Below, piece after piece: positions 343 through 39,442 of a stretch of DNA of 39,795 nucleotides. Position 1 is the first letter of the stretch, and each line of letters opens with the position of its first letter. The stretch is from positions 1 to 39,795 of the forward strand of contig JASBTH010000347.1 of NCBI GenBank assembly GCA_030148525.1, given 5' to 3'. This DNA is from Saprospiraceae bacterium (lineage in GTDB: Bacteria > Bacteroidota > Bacteroidia > Chitinophagales > Saprospiraceae). The position numbers were made by a program, and so were the translations under genes. Under the pieces are notes generated by a model, which was not told the DNA's origin, ran no database searches, and was given only the letters and a program-made list of their open reading frames with translations.

Positions 343-957
343 TTAACCCATTACCGCTTCTACATTTTTCACTTCCGGTACCATGCGCTTCATCATGCCT
401 TCGATACCGGCCTTGAGGGTTACCGTGGAAGACGGGCAACCACTGCAGGCACCCTGCATGATCAGGCGGACCGTGCCTTCGTTGAAGGATTCAAACTCGA
501 TGTTACCACCGTCCATTTCCACGGCCGGCTTCACGTAGGTTTCGAGCAGGTCCTTGATCTTTTTCACAATCTCGGCTTCGTTTTCGGTATAGTCGTAGCT
601 GGCACCACGCTCTTCTTCGATCTTGGCCATCGCTTCGGCAAAACCATCCTTGATGATCTCACCACCTTCGGTGACGTATTCTTTGATAAACTCCTTCAAT
701 TGGAGCATGATGTCTTCCCAGGCGTAGTTAAACTCCTTGGTAACGGTCACGAAGTTATTGCTCACGTAGACACCCTTTACGTAGGGCTTCTCAAACAAAG
801 CCGTAGCCAGGGGTGACCACTCTTTAGCCAGTTCTTCCTCGCCAAAGTCGGCCGTACCTTTATACAGCATGCGATTCGTTACGAACTTCAGAGATTCCGG
901 GTTGGGTGTTTGTTCGGTGTACAACATGACCGGACTCTTGGTAACGGGATTGCTCAT
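343..957 (-). CDS. Nfu/NifU-type iron-sulfur cluster scaffold protein
   Basis: This 204-residue protein matches Nfu-type Fe-S carriers, which hold a 4Fe-4S cluster in the cytoplasm and pass it to apo-enzymes. The N-terminal half (about residues 10-95, with YTEQTPNPESLKF near its start) fits the Nfu N-terminal domain. The C-terminal half (about 120-200) fits the NifU C-terminal domain and carries the cluster-binding CSGC at 171-174. The frame stays open upstream to 1050, but that extension is unlike the family and overlaps the structured region. The ATG at 955-957, giving MSNPVTK, is therefore preferred. It appears to be a single-gene unit with its own terminator. The family assignment is firm; the client enzymes are unknown. 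Confidence 0.93.
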   Translation of the reverse strand: MSNPVTKSPVMLYTEQTPNPESLKFVTNRMLYKGTADFGEEELAKEWSPLATALFEKPYVKGVYVSNNFVTVTKEFNYAWEDIMLQLKEFIKEYVTEGGEIIKDGFAEAMAKIEEERGASYDYTENEAEIVKKIKDLLETYVKPAVEMDGGNIEFESFNEGTVRLIMQGACSGCPSSTVTLKAGIEGMMKRMVPEVKNVEAVMG

Positions 958-1063
958 ATCAGTTTCTTTAGTCGTTTTTCGATTAACAGGGAAAGCCAAT
1001 CCGGACGTGCGGATCGGGTGTTCTAACTCATAAAACGCAACAGGCGTCATTTAGTTTTACAAT

Positions 1064-1368
1064 ACCGTGAGGTTGGGGCTAAGGTGTTTGCTAAATATAC
1101 CGACAACGAAGTGGTTTTGCTCCGCAGTACTTCGTGCTGGGAGTCCCAAACCACTTCGAGTCGAGTATATACCCGCGTGAAAAGGTTTGGCAAAGCCCAA
1201 ACCTTTTCGGAAGCGGTATAACTGAATATCATAACCTCACGGTGTATTTGGTAGAGGGTATTAGGTAGTAGGACTCGCTTTAATCCCGATACCTTATACC
1301 TACTACTCTACACCGGGAGGTTGGGCTCTGAATATCATCACTTTACGAATAAGTCTGTGCCCAACCTC
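1064..1368. repeat. Structured dispersed element, copy 1
   Basis: This gene-free stretch lies between the start of the Nfu gene and the end of the GHMP kinase gene. An outer stem pairs ACCGTGAGGTT (1064-1074) with its exact complement at 1233-1243. Inside it are two perfect hairpins: 1107-1117/1148-1158 (11 bp) and 1179-1190/1197-1208 (12 bp). The segment 1233-1246 can instead pair with 1309-1322 (13 of 14), enclosing an imperfect stem formed by 1251-1270 and about 1288-1310. The stretch 1317-1326 also pairs perfectly with 1359-1368. The part 1236-1368 is clearly related in sequence to 15229-15364. It could be a non-autonomous mobile element, a structured RNA or a 3'-end element; the sequence alone does not decide. 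Confidence 0.75.
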
Positions 1369-1371
1369 GGG

Positions 1372-2280
1372 TTACAATACAAAACTCCGGTAGGCATGCA
1401 AAACGGTATGTCCGCGTTCCGCGAAATAGGCCTGCACCTCCGATTCAGGAACATCGCTAACGAACAGGACGTAATCTCCGCCCCAGGCTCCCAGAGATTT
1501 CACAACACCCGGTGCATCGGAAAACAGTACCTCACCTACTGGCTGTAACCCGGTACAGCGGGCAATGAGTTGCTCGTGCCTCAACAGCAATTCCGCAAAG
1601 TCCTTTCTTTTTTTGGCGGAAGCCAATTCAAGGCTAATCTGACTGATCGCCTCTACCGGCGGAGTTGTGCCCGCCTGCTTATATCGCTTAATGCCCGACC
1701 GGCTGTTTTGCTTTTGGCCCAGGTACACGAAATACAGATTGTCGGCAAAAGGGGGATCAAAGGGAATGCGCACATGATGACCACGATCATCACGACGCTG
1801 GTACAGAATGGGGCCATCACTGCGCGCGCAGGCCAGATCGTAACCCGAGCCACCAAAGGTAGCGTTGGCCAGATCGTAGGCATCAACTCCGGCCCAACCA
1901 GCCACCAACGTTAACAAGGTGGAGCTACTGCCGAGGCCCCAGGATCGGTCAAATTCCAGCAGGGTGCGGACTTGGCAAGGGCCGGGTTGAAAAGTGCCGT
2001 TCGATAATCTTCGCGCGTGGATTAGCACCTCACTCAGCCGCTGCCCCATACCAGGGTCGGTAGTGTCGATCACCGTCAGTCGATCCGGATCTAAGCGAAC
2101 CTGCAGCCATTTTTCCTGATCACCCTGCCAGCTCTCCCACCATAAATCCTTCCCACCATCCGCTTTGTCCAAGTATAAATGCTGCCCCATTCTAGTGGGC
2201 AAACCAATACCCAGAGCACCATCCAGAATGACGTATTCCCCCGACAAGAGTACCTTTCCGTGGGCATAGTAGTGGGCCAT
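1372..2280 (-). CDS. GHMP kinase of the GYDLA type (mevalonate-kinase-like)
   Basis: This 302-residue soluble kinase belongs to the galacto/homoserine/mevalonate/phosphomevalonate superfamily. The N-terminal strand carries HGKVLLSGEY (7-16). The ATP-binding glycine/serine loop is GLGSSST (115-121). GSGYDLA (144-150) is the signature that names this Bacteroidota subgroup. It lies 6 bp after the HMG-CoA reductase gene and in the same operon as a type II IPP isomerase. A role as one of the mevalonate-pathway kinases is therefore likely. Which phosphorylation step it catalyses (mevalonate or phosphomevalonate) cannot be read from the sequence. The remaining pathway kinases and the decarboxylase are not in this window. 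Confidence 0.9.
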   Translation of the reverse strand: MAHYYAHGKVLLSGEYVILDGALGIGLPTRMGQHLYLDKADGGKDLWWESWQGDQEKWLQVRLDPDRLTVIDTTDPGMGQRLSEVLIHARRLSNGTFQPGPCQVRTLLEFDRSWGLGSSSTLLTLVAGWAGVDAYDLANATFGGSGYDLACARSDGPILYQRRDDRGHHVRIPFDPPFADNLYFVYLGQKQNSRSGIKRYKQAGTTPPVEAISQISLELASAKKRKDFAELLLRHEQLIARCTGLQPVGEVLFSDAPGVVKSLGAWGGDYVLFVSDVPESEVQAYFAERGHTVLHAYRSFVL

Positions 2281-2286
2281 GGTTAC

Positions 2287-3627
2287 TTATTTAACGGTCG
2301 CTCCCGATTCCAGAAACTCCCGTACAGCCGTGAAGGAAACCGTTTTATCGGCGAAGTGCTGCTGGGCACGCTCTTTATCTTGGTCAGAGGCACCAAGATG
2401 ATTCAGGATGTTTTGCAAGTGCATTTTCATGTGCCCTTTCTGAATGCCAGTGGTCGTGAGAGATCGCACGGCCGCGAAGTTTTGGGCCAGTCCGGTACTT
2501 ACAATGATCTCCATCAACTGTGCTGCTGATGGATTACCCAGTAATTCCAGTGATAGTTTGGCCAGCGGGTGGAGCTTGGTCAGGCCGCCTACGGTTCCCA
2601 GAGCCAGGGGCAACTCCATCCAGAAGCGGAAAATGCCATCTGATACATCACAGTGACTCAGGGAGCGGTACTGTCCGTCGCGGGCGGCGTGCGTATGGCC
2701 GCAGGCCTCCACTGCCCGAAAATCATTGCCCGTAGCCAGCACCACTGCATCGACCCCGTTAAAAATGCCTTTATTGTGCGTAGTGGCCCGGTAGGGATCT
2801 ATTTCGGCAATGCGGACTGCTTTCTGGAATTTTTTGGCGAAAGCCAGGGGAGCCAAATCGCCACAAGCTCCCTTCAGTGTATCTACCGGACATTGTACTT
2901 CCGCCCGCACCACGCATTCGGGGGTGTAGTTGGACAGAATGGCCATAATAATGTTGAGATCGCGATCTTTTTCTGGCAGATTAGTCATTCCCTGCACAAA
3001 ATCACGGAGGGTACGCCCGAATTGCTCAAGCACCGAATTGATGAAGTTGGCCCCCATAGAATCACAGGTCTCAAAGGTCACTTTCAACTGGTGGTACTCA
3101 GGCTCCAGATGGGTCATATCGAGCCATTCAATCTTCAATATACCACCACCTCGTTTAACCATATTTTCGGTCAGATGGGTGGCTTCCGCCAAAAGGCGCT
3201 GCTTAAGGGCAGCAATATGCTGCTGGATCCGGGCGTAATCACCCGTCCAGGTAAAATGCACCTGTCCAACCTTAGTTGTAGAGATCACCTCGGCCTTAAA
3301 CCCTCCGCGTTCAAGCCAAAACTTAGCTGCACTGGAGGCCGCTGCCACCACTGAACTCTCCTCGATTACCATGGGTACAGCGTAGATGTGATCGTTGATC
3401 CGCATATTCGGGGCAATCCCGAAAGGCATGTAATAGTTGGTTAGCGTATTCTCACTGAATCCATCCAGAACACGCTGCAGAGCTTCATCCTCGTGCCAGA
3501 AGCTCCGTAGTAGTTGAGCTGCCTCAGTGGGATGCTGCAACCAATGTTGTGCCACCCATTCGATCTTTTCATTCTTGGAAAGCCTGGAGAAACCAGTGAT
3601 TGTCTTTTCCTGCATGTCCGGATTCAA
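2287..3627 (-). CDS. mvaA: Hydroxymethylglutaryl-CoA reductase, class II
   Basis: This 446-residue enzyme interconverts HMG-CoA and mevalonate using a nicotinamide cofactor. Class II features are visible: ENTLTNYYMPFGIAPN (59-74) leading to the catalytic glutamate in IEESSVVAAAS (88-98), DSMGANF (189-195), the catalytic lysine in HNKGIFNG (284-291), the aspartate in ATGND (298-302) and the C-terminal histidine of GHMKMH (398-403). Class II enzymes were first known from mevalonate degradation. Here the neighbours (IPP isomerase, GHMP kinase) argue for biosynthesis of isoprenoids. The stop is 6 bp before the kinase start. An ATG four codons further in (3615) is an alternative start. Confidence 0.95.
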   Translation of the reverse strand: MNPDMQEKTITGFSRLSKNEKIEWVAQHWLQHPTEAAQLLRSFWHEDEALQRVLDGFSENTLTNYYMPFGIAPNMRINDHIYAVPMVIEESSVVAAASSAAKFWLERGGFKAEVISTTKVGQVHFTWTGDYARIQQHIAALKQRLLAEATHLTENMVKRGGGILKIEWLDMTHLEPEYHQLKVTFETCDSMGANFINSVLEQFGRTLRDFVQGMTNLPEKDRDLNIIMAILSNYTPECVVRAEVQCPVDTLKGACGDLAPLAFAKKFQKAVRIAEIDPYRATTHNKGIFNGVDAVVLATGNDFRAVEACGHTHAARDGQYRSLSHCDVSDGIFRFWMELPLALGTVGGLTKLHPLAKLSLELLGNPSAAQLMEIIVSTGLAQNFAAVRSLTTTGIQKGHMKMHLQNILNHLGASDQDKERAQQHFADKTVSFTAVREFLESGATVK

Positions 3628-9456: not shown

Positions 9457-9527
9457 TATCAGGTTTGAGGTTTGAGGTTTGAGGCGATAGGTTAGGTTAT
9501 AGGTAACCTCAAATCTCACACCTGATA
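9457..9527. terminator. Bidirectional hairpin made of heptamer repeats (pyrH/comF junction)
   Basis: The left arm 9457-9477 contains three tandem GTTTGAG-type heptamers. It pairs with 9507-9527 in 19 of 21 positions. A nested AGGTTA/TAACCT pair (9489-9494/9504-9509) lies within. It sits exactly between two convergent genes, so it probably stops transcription from both sides. The tandem period of 7 recurs at other gene ends in this window. Confidence 0.6.
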
Positions 9528-9539
9528 CCAGATACCTGT

Positions 9540-10241
9540 TTAAAGCTGAGCTATAGCGATGGTCGCCATAGAAATCTTGGCATCTGTCGCCCCCTGTAAC
9601 TGAATAGCGCAAGCCTCCAGGGTAGCTCCCGTCGTAAGGACGTCATCCACTAACAGAATGTGCTTTCCTTTTAACTGCTGAAGGTGTCGGGCTTGAAAAG
9701 CGGCCAACACATTCTGGAAGCGCTCCAACCGGCCCTTTTGGGTCTGGGAAGTTTGGTATACCGATCTCACGAGAAAGCGCTCTACCATAGGTATTTGCAG
9801 GCTGTGAGCCAGCCCTTCCCCGAAACGGGCAGCCTGATTGTACCCTCGCTTGTGCTTCTTTTTGGGGTGTAAGGGGACCGGAATGATCAGGTCGGGCTTT
9901 GCATCTTCGTAAGAGTCTGACAATATCCGTCCGTATTCCCGGCCCAGTCCGGTACCTACCTGTGGCTGGCTACGATACTTCAAGGCGTGAATGAGGGACT
10001 GAATTTGCCCGCCTTTAACGAAATGGAACATGGCGCTTCCGAATTGCAGAGGTACCCGTCCCCAGAAACGCTCCGTAAAGGTATTTTCGCGAAAGCGATG
10101 CATATCTGTCAATGGCCATTCCGACCGGCAGGTGAGGCAAACAAATTGCTTCGGATTGGCTAAGACTCCTTCACAGGCCACACAAAGATGAGGGTAAAAA
10201 AGGTGGCCCAGAGCTCGCAGGGACGTGCGCATCCACGACAT
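9540..10241 (-). CDS. comF: ComF family phosphoribosyltransferase-like protein
   Basis: This 233-residue protein has an N-terminal four-cysteine zinc-binding motif (C20, C23, C35, C38) followed by a type I phosphoribosyltransferase fold. The fold includes PVPLHPKKKHKRGYNQA (about 121-137) and the PRPP-binding loop VDDVLTTGAT (198-207). Homologues are linked to DNA uptake in naturally competent bacteria (ComFC/GntX), but many family members have no proven role. It stands alone between convergent pyrH and the upstream HtrA gene on the same strand. Confidence 0.92.
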   Translation of the reverse strand: MSWMRTSLRALGHLFYPHLCVACEGVLANPKQFVCLTCRSEWPLTDMHRFRENTFTERFWGRVPLQFGSAMFHFVKGGQIQSLIHALKYRSQPQVGTGLGREYGRILSDSYEDAKPDLIIPVPLHPKKKHKRGYNQAARFGEGLAHSLQIPMVERFLVRSVYQTSQTQKGRLERFQNVLAAFQARHLQQLKGKHILLVDDVLTTGATLEACAIQLQGATDAKISMATIAIAQL

Positions 10242-14273: not shown

Positions 14274-14632
14274 AGCAAGCAAACAAGGTTTTGCTGACTA
14301 TTGCATTAAAGAATAGTATTTGGGACACGGCTTTTTATTAGATGCCCGGGGGTAGGTTGAGGTTTAGACTGAGACTCAGAATCCCGCCTTCACCGGGCAT
14401 ACGCCCGTATGGGTTTCGACGGGCAGGGAAGGTTAAGATTGGAGCTCATGTAAAAAACCATGTACCTTGAACCTTGAACCTTGAATGTTGGACCATGGAC
14501 CTTGCTCCTGAAGGCAGACAGAGAAAAGTATTTCTCAGCCTGAACCTTAACCTAAACCTGAATACTATTTCCAATGCCTTACATAAAAGGAGATTTGGCG
14601 TTGACCCAGGCCCTTCCAAAATCCACTTGGCT
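14274..14632. other. Non-coding region with palindromes and heptamer repeats
   Basis: This 359-base gap holds ATGCCCGG (14342-14349) pairing with CCGGGCAT (14393-14400), a nested CATACG/CGTATG (14398-14403/14406-14411), and the heptamer array listed separately. An upstream reading frame runs through the repeats into the next gene, but its composition shows it is not coding. No tRNA-like fold was found. Confidence 0.55.
14457..14505. repeat. Array of seven heptamers
   Basis: Seven consecutive 7-base units are seen: ACCATGT, ACCTTGA three times, ATGTTGG, ACCATGG and ACCTTGC. The three central units are identical (14464-14484). A looser run of the same kind follows near 14536-14562. The array lies in front of the secreted-protein gene starting at 14633. 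Confidence 0.8.
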
Positions 14633-15181
14633 ATGAAATCTCGTATCCTCATTTTTCTGACGTATTGTCTTTTTTCCCTCCCCCTCCACTCCCAGGGCCT
14701 CGGCCCGCTGGAGTTGGGCCAGTTGCTGGAGGAGATGCGAGCCGAAATATTGGCTCCGCTCGACGGTGATTATCGTCGCCTTAAGGTGCGTAAAAACCGC
14801 GTGCAAAACTACCAATGGGCGTTGGGTTCTGCCCGCGAAGACCTGGAAATACGCTACCTGGCCATCCCCGATGACGGTAGTGAATTACTCGACTATCCCC
14901 ATATCGAAGCCTCCCGGCTAGCTATGCAGATTTGCAGTAATGTGCAAGAGTCGGCCATTACCGCCCGCGACCTCACGGAAGAAGAACGCATCGACCTGTT
15001 CAATGCCGACTGGGGACGTATGTATATGTTCCCACCCAAAGAAGAATTCGGCCTGTACCTGCACTGCAAGATGGTCGCCCTCTTCCGGGAAGGTAGCGGT
15101 ATGATGGTCATCTTTCACCTCTTCGATGAACCCAGCCCCGAAATTGACAATCGCCTGTATACCTTCCGCTTTATGGATTGA
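14633..15181 (+). CDS. Secreted protein of unknown function
   Basis: This 182-residue protein has a clear signal peptide (MKSRILIFLTYCLFSLPLHSQG). The mature part starts with LGPLELGQLLEEMRAEILAPLDGDYRRLKVRKNRV, then alternates charged and aromatic residues with no catalytic motif I recognise. Two segments, DYPHIEASRLAMQICSN and KEEFGLYLHCKMVALFREG, contain cysteines that could form a disulfide. The start is set at 14633, because the longer frame upstream translates the heptamer repeats (LNLNLNLN). The stop codon touches the second copy of the folded repeat element. Confidence 0.75.
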   Translation: MKSRILIFLTYCLFSLPLHSQGLGPLELGQLLEEMRAEILAPLDGDYRRLKVRKNRVQNYQWALGSAREDLEIRYLAIPDDGSELLDYPHIEASRLAMQICSNVQESAITARDLTEEERIDLFNADWGRMYMFPPKEEFGLYLHCKMVALFREGSGMMVIFHLFDEPSPEIDNRLYTFRFMD

Positions 15182-15364
15182 CGTAAGGTTGGTGGCCATC
15201 AGTTCGGTAAATTACTGAAGGCTGCAACTTTACGTTGTATTTGGTAGATGGTATTGGGTAGTAGGACTTGCTTAAATCCAAATACCTAATACTAATTACT
15301 TGGTACCGGGAGGTTGGGCGTTGAAAATGATCACTCTACGAAATAGTCTACTCCTGACCTCCCG
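15181..15364. repeat. Structured dispersed element, copy 2
   Basis: This shorter relative of the element at 1064-1368 has the same orientation. The outer stem is ACGTAAGGTT (15181-15190) with AACTTTACGT (15226-15235), including one G.U pair. Compared with copy 1, one G-C pair has become A-T, which is a compensatory change. The middle part (15236-15308) keeps the TATTTGGTAGA..GGTATT.GGTAGTAGGAC block and its imperfect complement. The end part keeps CCGGGAGGTTGGGC (15306-15319) and pairs 15307-15318 with 15353-15364 (10 of 12). The inner part of the outer stem is only 35 bases instead of 158. The element begins at the last base of a gene and ends 99 bases before sdaA. Confidence 0.75.
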
Positions 15365-15387
15365 ATAAAATTGACATCCATAAAGCA

Positions 15388-20054: not shown

Positions 20055-20085
20055 GGTATTTGGTAACGCGGGAGGGGGCGAATGG

Positions 20086-20126
20086 TTGCGATGGCATCGG
20101 CGATGCTATCGCCGATGCCATCGCAA
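20086..20126. repeat. Perfect 19-bp inverted repeat in a divergent promoter region
   Basis: The arms 20086-20104 and 20108-20126 are perfectly complementary, with only GCT between them. The stem is itself built from GCGATG/CATCGC units (GCGATGGCATCGGCGAT). It lies between two divergently transcribed genes, so it is not at a gene end and has no T-run. Two tandem copies of AAAGTTTTCCAC follow immediately. Confidence 0.8.
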
Positions 20127-20148
20127 AGTTTTCCACAAAGTTTTCCAC
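20125..20148. repeat. Two tandem copies of AAAGTTTTCCAC
   Basis: The 12-mer occurs at 20125-20136 and again at 20137-20148 without a mismatch. Each contains TTTTCCACA or TTTTCCACAT, one base from the DnaA-box consensus TTATCCACA. The overlap with the end of the 19-bp palindrome is two bases. Function is unknown. Confidence 0.7.
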
Positions 20149-20213: not shown

Positions 20214-21653
20214 ATGAAACGCCTACGCCTCATCATCTTATTCTCAATGTCCTGCCTCGGACTTTCCGCAGCCGTCATCGATGGCTTTGTGTATTACTTC
20301 GAATCGGAGGATGGTTTCGACCGCCTCAAATTCAGCTTACCCGACTATTTATCCATGAAACGGTTGACCGAGTACGCAGGCATTGGTGAGGATGGCTATT
20401 TCCGCCTGGAACTCGATCTGCCCGAACCCGTCGAAATGAAATTGTACCAAGGTGGCCGGAACCAGTCGCTGCTCATAGGCCCGGACGATAGCCTGCATAT
20501 CACCTTCGATTACCCCGAATGGACGGAACATGGAGGAGCCGCCCTCGCAATCACCGGCACCGCGGTCGACCGGCAGTACCGATTGATGCAAATCCAAGAT
20601 GCTTACGCAGCAGCTTTCCCGGAATTGGACATGTATAAATACGCCGACATCTCCCCGGAAGAAGTACGCAGCCTCTTGGAGAATCGCCACCAAGATATGC
20701 TGACCTTCTGGCGGGGCTGGGATATTCAGGACCCTGTACTCCAGGAATGGGTCGATCACCAGGCTTTCTTCCGGTTGGTCCCGCTATATTTTAAGTATGC
20801 TAACCTCTCGCGCAAGAACCGGGAATCGTTCTTTCCCTCATCGACTTATTTTGACTTCTGGGAGGCTGTGCTACAGCAGCAGCAAATCAACTTGAGATCA
20901 TTCAGTTTGCAACGCCTTTGCAGTGTGTATACGAATTATCTCAACTTATCCATGCCTGAAAAACTTGCCGGTCAGTTGCCTAAGGAAACACCAGAGCGTT
21001 TCCATGCATTGATCCGGGCTCAATCACAGCATATTTTACAATTATCTATACCTCAATTGATGAAAGACCGTTTGCTGGCCCTCCAGCAAGGAAATAATCT
21101 GAATTTTAAAATGGGTGTTTCGGGGGTTGATACCGCTTACGCAAAAAGCATCCGAACGCCTTTTTTGCGCAAGCAATTACTAGATAAATACATTTCGGCC
21201 ACCAGTACGGAACCAGCCCTGACCAATGGGTCCGAGCTGGAAATACCGGTTAATACACCTTCACTCATTGAATTCCTGCACGCAAAATATCCCGGCAAAA
21301 CCATCCTCATCGACTTTTGGGGTACCTGGTGTGGTAGCTGCCTCAGGGGGATGCGTGAAAAAATGCCGGCGATCGTCGACCAGTTTCGGGAAAAAGACCT
21401 GCAAATAGTATTTGTGGCCTGCCTTTCTCCCCGTTACCAATGGATCAACACCATCAACGAGCTTCCCTATCCAGCTACTCATATCAATCTGATCGATCAA
21501 CAACTAGCCACCTTTACACCGGAATTCGGGCTTAAAGCATTTCCTCAATACACGCTCGTCGACAAGAACGGGCAGATGGTCTTCCGTAGAGCCGATTTTC
21601 CGGGTCATGGACTGGAGGAGCAGGTGAACGGGCTTTTATCCTCAAAAGACTAA
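20214..21653 (+). CDS. Exported TlpA-like thioredoxin-fold protein
   Basis: This 479-residue protein has an N-terminal signal peptide (MKRLRLIILFSMSCLGLSAA), a long family-less region of about 320 residues, and a C-terminal thioredoxin domain (about 350-475). The domain has the active site WCGSC, with cysteines 373 and 376, in FWGTWCGSCLRGM, and the cis-proline segment FPQYTLVD. Such proteins reduce or shuffle disulfides outside the cytoplasm in Bacteroidota. The N-terminal part resembles the beta-rich DUF4369-type layout of related proteins only loosely. It appears monocistronic. Its stop codon lies within the stem of a long hairpin. Confidence 0.87.
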   Translation: MKRLRLIILFSMSCLGLSAAVIDGFVYYFESEDGFDRLKFSLPDYLSMKRLTEYAGIGEDGYFRLELDLPEPVEMKLYQGGRNQSLLIGPDDSLHITFDYPEWTEHGGAALAITGTAVDRQYRLMQIQDAYAAAFPELDMYKYADISPEEVRSLLENRHQDMLTFWRGWDIQDPVLQEWVDHQAFFRLVPLYFKYANLSRKNRESFFPSSTYFDFWEAVLQQQQINLRSFSLQRLCSVYTNYLNLSMPEKLAGQLPKETPERFHALIRAQSQHILQLSIPQLMKDRLLALQQGNNLNFKMGVSGVDTAYAKSIRTPFLRKQLLDKYISATSTEPALTNGSELEIPVNTPSLIEFLHAKYPGKTILIDFWGTWCGSCLRGMREKMPAIVDQFREKDLQIVFVACLSPRYQWINTINELPYPATHINLIDQQLATFTPEFGLKAFPQYTLVDKNGQMVFRRADFPGHGLEEQVNGLLSSKD

Positions 21654-21718
21654 AGACAATTAGATGCTAGATAGAAGAGTCTGGATCTTCTATCTGTTAT
21701 CTAACAGTCTTTAGTCTT
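21646..21718. terminator. Long near-perfect hairpin at a convergent junction
   Basis: Three nested perfect stems are seen: 21646-21657 with 21707-21718 (12 bp), TTAGAT 21660-21665 with ATCTAA 21699-21704, and 21669-21678 with 21686-21695 (10 bp). TAGAT recurs at 7-base spacing within it. The outer stem includes the stop codon of the thioredoxin-fold gene. It probably ends transcription from both convergent genes. Confidence 0.65.
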
Positions 21719-31769: not shown

Positions 31770-31962
31770 TTGAACATGTTAACCGGCGTGGTCTGCTGAG
31801 CATACTATATTCCTTAGTCGAATTCCAGGCTACTAGCATTGCTACGCTGATGGCCATAGTCGCGCCCATACAAAACCCCGGCAAATAGCTGACTTACAAC
31901 ATCTACCCAAAGCTTTTTGGAAGCGGTATAGTTTCCTGTTCCACACTACCGAAACACGACCT

Positions 31963-39381: not shown

Positions 39382-39442
39382 TGTCAACAATTCCTGTTTG
39401 CCGTCTACAAAAATTGAAGATGGCAAACAGGAATTGTTGACA
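39382..39442. repeat. Perfect 21-bp inverted repeat
   Basis: The arms 39382-39402 and 39422-39442 are exactly complementary, with a 19-base spacer. It begins with TGTCAACAATTCC and lies between the permease stop (39471) and the oxidoreductase start (39344) on the minus strand. There is no T-run after either arm, so it is not a typical intrinsic terminator. Confidence 0.8.

Follow-up and report, generated by a model that had tools for sequence, protein, structure and literature searches.

RUP, ERIC/IRU and Correia/NEMIS are bacterial miniature transposons (MITEs) with TA ends, and their insertion into transposase genes has been reported (PMC2229807). MITECca01 of Cardinium is an IS-derived MITE of the Bacteroidota with a parent in the IS982 family (PMC9769881). 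REPINs, or REP doublets, which are associated with RAYTs, are inverted pairs of a short hairpin-forming unit that occurs singly and in pairs outside genes (PMC3116915). GTAG/CGTC-tagged REPs are palindromes of 20–40 bp that carry their tag, GTAG or CGTC, unpaired; the CGTC type is found in Bacteroidetes, and some tagged repeats have been reported nested inside other palindromes (PMC3733652).

The window, the whole stretch of 39,795 nucleotides analyzed here, contains at 1064–1368 an element that very probably consists of two different non-autonomous MITE-type DNA transposons, one (A) nested in the other (B). The likeness to RUP, ERIC/IRU and Correia/NEMIS lies in length (<200 bp), lack of coding sequence, palindromic structure, terminal inverted repeats, TA ends and tens of intergenic copies; A agrees with these repeats in size, ends and TA target, and B lies in a transposase gene in G009, a genome from another genus of the family, as reported for them (PMC2229807). 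A differs in having two separate hairpins rather than one long hairpin and no parent IS was found for it, while the target of B is 7 bp and A/T-rich, not TA; the repeats were compared by description, and a sequence relation is not evident. As with MITECca01 (PMC9769881), a short IS-like repeat has been amplified in particular lineages, chiefly between genes and within other mobile elements, but B is 184 bp with four alternating arms, and no IS982-type PF13612 gene was found in the host genome (G000), G009 or G285. B resembles REPINs in its inverted pair of hairpin units, in the occurrence of singles beside pairs and in lying outside genes, but it makes 7-bp duplications, its units are longer (~57 bp), there is a third palindrome in the center and no RAYT gene is linked to it. 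Tagged REPs share palindromy and nesting with B, which is far longer and in which CGTG is part of the stem. The features assigned in the window were:

1058–1064, no strand: left copy of the B target-site duplication, TACAATA, identical to 1373–1379; counting 1057, the left duplication is 8 bp (1057–1064, TTACAATA).
1065–1095, + strand: left part of B, with arm 1 as the terminal inverted repeat, then the first half of the loop of the left hairpin; 100% identical to positions 1–33 of the whole-B query, the end of B being set by the G009 copies.
1096–1220, + strand: A, nested in B, TATACC...GGTATA, two hairpins; about 30 host copies at 80–95% identity.
1096–1097 and 1219–1220: presumed TA duplication of A, from unbroken B loops elsewhere.
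1221–1372, + strand: right part of B, comprising the remainder of the left hairpin, the central palindrome and the right hairpin; 95% match to contig C306, with 40 other matches to B in the host genome.
1233–1243, − strand: arm 2 of B, which pairs with arm 1 (11 of 11 with 1064–1074) or alternatively with arm 3 (1233–1246, 13 of 14 with 1309–1322).
1241–1314, no strand: central palindrome of B, GGTGTA...TACACC, from the fold and the alignment of B copies.
1313–1372, − strand: right hairpin unit of B (arms 3 and 4), a reverse-complement relative of the left hairpin, from a covariance model match (79 bits) and the unit alignment.
1373–1379, no strand: TACAATA again, the right-hand target-site duplicate, which shares bases with the kinase stop codon.
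15181–15364, + strand: second copy of B in the window, uninterrupted, from a full-length profile match.
31905–31930, + strand: probable remnant of the right end of A, 92% identical over 25 bp to 1196–1220.

The host genome was searched with window positions 1052–1371 as the query. Matches were of two kinds, seldom overlapping and at different loci, and covered query positions 42–175 (A) and 168–320 (B). At several host loci B was unbroken, ~184 bp long and included the bases found on both sides of A in the window; with A taken out, 1065–1095 and 1221–1372 together form an ordinary copy of B, 94% identical to the copy in contig C306, and the split window copy now spans 1065–1372. The preliminary description had treated the region as a single element with two perfect hairpins inside the 1064–1243 stem. 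B does span the region and the hairpins are real, but they form a separate nested repeat, since 1096–1220 comes from the other family and the element is composite. A copy 14 kb away had likewise been claimed; it is real (15211–15371 matched, full element 15181–15364), but corresponds to only part of the region and is without the 1096–1220 hairpins. It starts at the TGA stop of the ORF 14474–15181, and its duplication has decayed, with ATTGA common to both flanks. The preliminary description had missed the nesting, the TACAATA duplication at the flanks and dozens of other copies.

B is short (<300 bp) and non-coding, with terminal inverted repeats ACGTGAGGTTGG... and ...CCAACCTCACG in most full-length copies. 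An arm of ~12 bp, GTGAGGTTGGGC, recurs in the order arm 1, arm 2 inverted, central palindrome, arm 3 and arm 4 inverted. Arms 1–2 and 3–4 form the hairpins, while arms 2–3 and 1–4 are also able to pair, so that the four alternating inverted copies by themselves give B competing, partly exclusive pairings. All three pairings proposed previously were recovered: that of 1064–1074 is exact, the alternative between 1233–1246 and 1309–1322 has its one mismatch as listed, and 1317–1326 pairs with 1359–1368 at 10 of 10 positions. When the right hairpin is reverse-complemented, the left one can be aligned to it across the loop as well (TTTGCTAAATAACTGAATGTCA with TTTCGTAAAGTGATGATAGTCAA, for example), and B is thus an inverted pair of a ~57-bp unit around a palindrome.

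A is ~124 bp long, with two hairpins and TATACC/GGTATA ends, and has about 30 or more copies in the host. In 32 near-full-length copies, the ends TATACCGA...GCGGTATA were almost invariant and the flanks unrelated. The unbroken B loop in C306 reads GCTAAGTAACTG, the junction in the window reads GCTAAA-TATACC...GGTATA-ACTG, and the junction in C113 reads GC-TATACC...GGTATA-AATAACTG, placing A at the neighboring TA of the same B loop motif. A occupies different TAs in the window and in C113; the two insertions were independent, and both fit a TA duplication. In a third B-type unit (C622, L160), a degenerate A occupies the TA that is used in the window. A has the TA target duplication and inverted ends of a MITE, a slightly asymmetric element without duplication being formally equivalent. 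A entered later, at a TA in the left loop of B. Immediately to the left of A, a 42-bp sequence, AGAGCGTGTTTGGGATTTATCCTTTGGACTGCAAATGTCTAT, was observed with the same junction and different outer flanks at L005, L009, L010, L012, L024, L027, L028 and L030; its end also abuts or enters the B copies L056, L057 and L073. By appearance, this is one end of a third mobile element, which captured A.

The host genome contains at least 40 copies of B. In G009, eight copies, 99–100% identical over ~190 bp, lie at unrelated sites, nearly all with an exact duplication (for example, TACCTTA, TATCTTA, TATTTTA and TTGCTTA), which points to a recently active B family in Saprospiraceae. Exact duplications of at least 6 bp were present beside the ends of 22 of 37 unique full-length copies; when the right flanks were shuffled among the left flanks in 500 trials, the mean was 1.8 and the maximum 6. 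A clear duplication was absent from the other 15 of the 37, the second copy in the window included. The target is A/T-rich, roughly TAWTTTA, and the duplication 7 bp. In the window, TACAATA is perfect on both sides (1058–1064 and 1373–1379) and the kinase stop codon stays intact; this stop, TAA at 1372–1374 on the − strand, lies where the position earlier given relative to the GHMP kinase gene would place it. In G001, from another species of the genus, the same kinase-nifU pair is separated by a short gap without B or A; as its kinase is only 49% identical, the locus counts as a distant ortholog with the site empty. The suggestion that the element might be a mobile palindrome is upheld by the target-site duplications, the near-identical copies at unrelated sites and the empty orthologous site. 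B has the size, absence of coding sequence, terminal repeats, constant-length duplications and dispersed copies, some of them recent, of a MITE. B inserted at a TAWTTTA-like site at the kinase stop codon, with a 7-bp duplication that spared the stop; any effect on the transcript, such as added 3′-end structure between kinase and nifU, would be incidental.

In stop-free frames called mechanically near B copies, about a third of 28 copies lay no more than some 11 bp away from the 3′ end of a long frame, possibly as a consequence of the A/T-rich TAWTTTA target; in the G285 copy (L190), the TAA of the ORF is inside the end of B (ACGTAAGG). The − strand of 343–3627 in the window encodes a NifU-type scaffold protein, a GYDIA-family GHMP kinase and a relative of degradative hydroxymethylglutaryl-CoA reductase, the last scoring just under the model cut-off.

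Competing pairings had also been taken to resemble an RNA switch. According to this explanation, a structured regulatory RNA (switch or attenuator) lies at the 3′ end of the kinase transcript and its alternative pairings control termination or stability. The predicted folds are indeed very stable, the 320-base region giving z scores of −8.4 (+ strand) and −9.1 (− strand), matched by 0 of 100 shuffles, the alternative pairings are exact, and the A hairpins contain pairwise compensatory changes. The near-equal strength on both strands follows from palindromic DNA, however, and is no argument for one RNA strand. Across 24 aligned B copies, the alternative pairing was not kept by compensatory change: the RNAalifold covariation term was −0.06, and 278 of 500 shuffles were as good for the nested alternative (arms 1–4 and 2–3). 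The local hairpins of B were marginal (20 of 500 shuffles for cells paired, 37 of 500 for covariation), an excess within what the relatedness of the copies can give. Copies lie beside unrelated genes on either strand, no terminator-like site was found in 950–1500, and no Rfam family scored above its curated threshold in the window, consistent with the preliminary description, which knew of no named family. As the alternative pairing of B is without covariation, the switch reading is not supported and deserves almost no credence; the mutual exclusion arises from the four alternating arm copies. Such arms can mimic competing RNA pairings, the apparent switch here being nested miniature transposons.

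In A, six pairs were changed on both sides versus 1.5 in shuffles, and the paired share was 93.9% versus 93.0%. The first (inner) loop segment was inverted in L162, L119 and L029, and the second loop in L019 and L020. Loop inversion with arm correction is ascribed to replication template switching in two reports (PMC8794818, PMC8604942), and its presence alongside the covariation of A, a sign of template switching according to one of them (PMC8794818), speaks against the structured-RNA reading. From the loop inversions and paired changes we infer, short of proof, that the covariation in A reflects template-switch mutation bias and not a selected RNA; compensatory changes alone, when accompanied by loop inversions as in A, need not mean selected RNA. 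Paired stem changes were observed in A copies L013 and L019, and for template-switch mutation in palindromes the copies offer naturally occurring data.

The B terminal repeats would be cut with a 7-bp stagger by a DDE transposase acting in trans, and A would be moved by a TA-targeting (IS630/Tc1-mariner-like) transposase. In the draft genomes, which are fragmented and 84–89% complete, no gene flanked by the ends of B or A was found. Searches of G000 and G009 with PF01609, PF13358, PF01797 and PF13612 (DDE_Tnp_1, DDE_3, Y1 and DDE_Tnp_1_3) returned few genes, none with B or A ends. For an IS630/Tc1-mariner-like parent of A, one DDE_3 gene without A ends was found in G009 and none in the draft G000. 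The end pattern CGTGAGGTTGGRSS, allowing one mismatch, occurred 87 times in the host versus 8 times for the reversed control; most of the sites examined were in B or single units, some were unassigned, and none marked an autonomous element. Since neither an autonomous element nor a transposase was found, the class of enzyme is read from the duplication alone. Between two unit matches in C122 (L145), a 1.8-kb stretch that looked like an autonomous element was rejected, as its genes were ordinary host genes and none a transposase. An integron attC site was rejected as well: the order of the core-like GTTGGGC/GCCCAAC is wrong for one, and 7 bp are duplicated on insertion. One G009 copy of B appears to lie inside a Y1 (RAYT-like) gene, the halves of which are apparently on C254 (L175/L187) and C677 (L177), with the duplication ATCAATA; there, B is a parasite of the transposase gene rather than an evident substrate.

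B could also be REPIN-like, that is, inverted pairs of hairpin units moved as single-stranded DNA by a RAYT (REP-associated tyrosine transposase). The inverted-pair architecture, the single units beside pairs, the extragenic placement and the RAYT-like Y1 genes in the host and G009 would fit this explanation. Single-strand transposition by Y1 enzymes of the IS200/IS605 type makes no target duplications, but B makes duplications of 7 bp; no copy of B, A or the unit flanks the RAYT-like genes of the host, and the sole linked Y1 gene in G009 is the one interrupted by B. With duplications and no associated RAYT, B falls outside the REPINs, and a REPIN-like origin is highly improbable.

Returning to B as a MITE, single ~57-bp units exist, at least four of them (L109, L119, L149 and L155) with 6–7 bp duplications and intact terminal repeats. 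We lean slightly toward these units being collapsed B only, produced by recombination between the direct-repeat arms 1/3 or 2/4, as such a deletion would keep the outer duplication; one unit, L147, has an arm-1-like base at its start and reads as arm 3 from there on. The duplications and intact repeats in L109, L119, L149 and L155 are, however, equally predicted by independent transposition. That the single ~57-bp hairpin unit is itself transposable with a 7-bp duplication, B being its inverted dimer and the enzyme recognizing the form of the hairpin rather than the 12-bp end alone, is unlikely; if true, the unit would be among the smallest transposable elements known.

A covariance model of the right hairpin was run against 298 genomes of the family and 395 genomes of the class, using strict filters and a limited number of candidates scored per genome, so that weak relatives may be missed. 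The copy numbers of A and B, from searches with a similarly capped number of scored candidates, are lower bounds. Within the family, many copies were found only in the host and G009, with one strong match in G285 (a full B) and two borderline matches. Among the genomes of the class, there was no match besides the host. A scan of GTDB r220 for the right hairpin gave only the Saprospiraceae MAG HLSAbin9 (10 contigs) and one Kuenenia contig, the latter a probable chance match. Phage and plasmid collections gave no match; the scan of IMG/VR for B was empty, and A-pattern matches there do not extend to A. The patchy spread over three genera fits horizontal spread or frequent loss. A and B are new families of bacterial MITEs, known in kind, whose parent element is missing.

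Other repeats were observed in the window. The intergenic repeat at 14354–14441 has relatives several times in L056 and once each in L003, L151 and L184, and the intergenic palindrome at 9457–9542 has a copy in C370. The segment 109–146, one arm of an inverted repeat with 186–209, and the strong palindrome at 20075–20127 each have a match at another host locus. Two strong intergenic inverted repeats unrelated to A or B are at 21646–21718 (33-nt arms, 85% complementary) and 39382–39442 (29-nt arms, 93% complementary).
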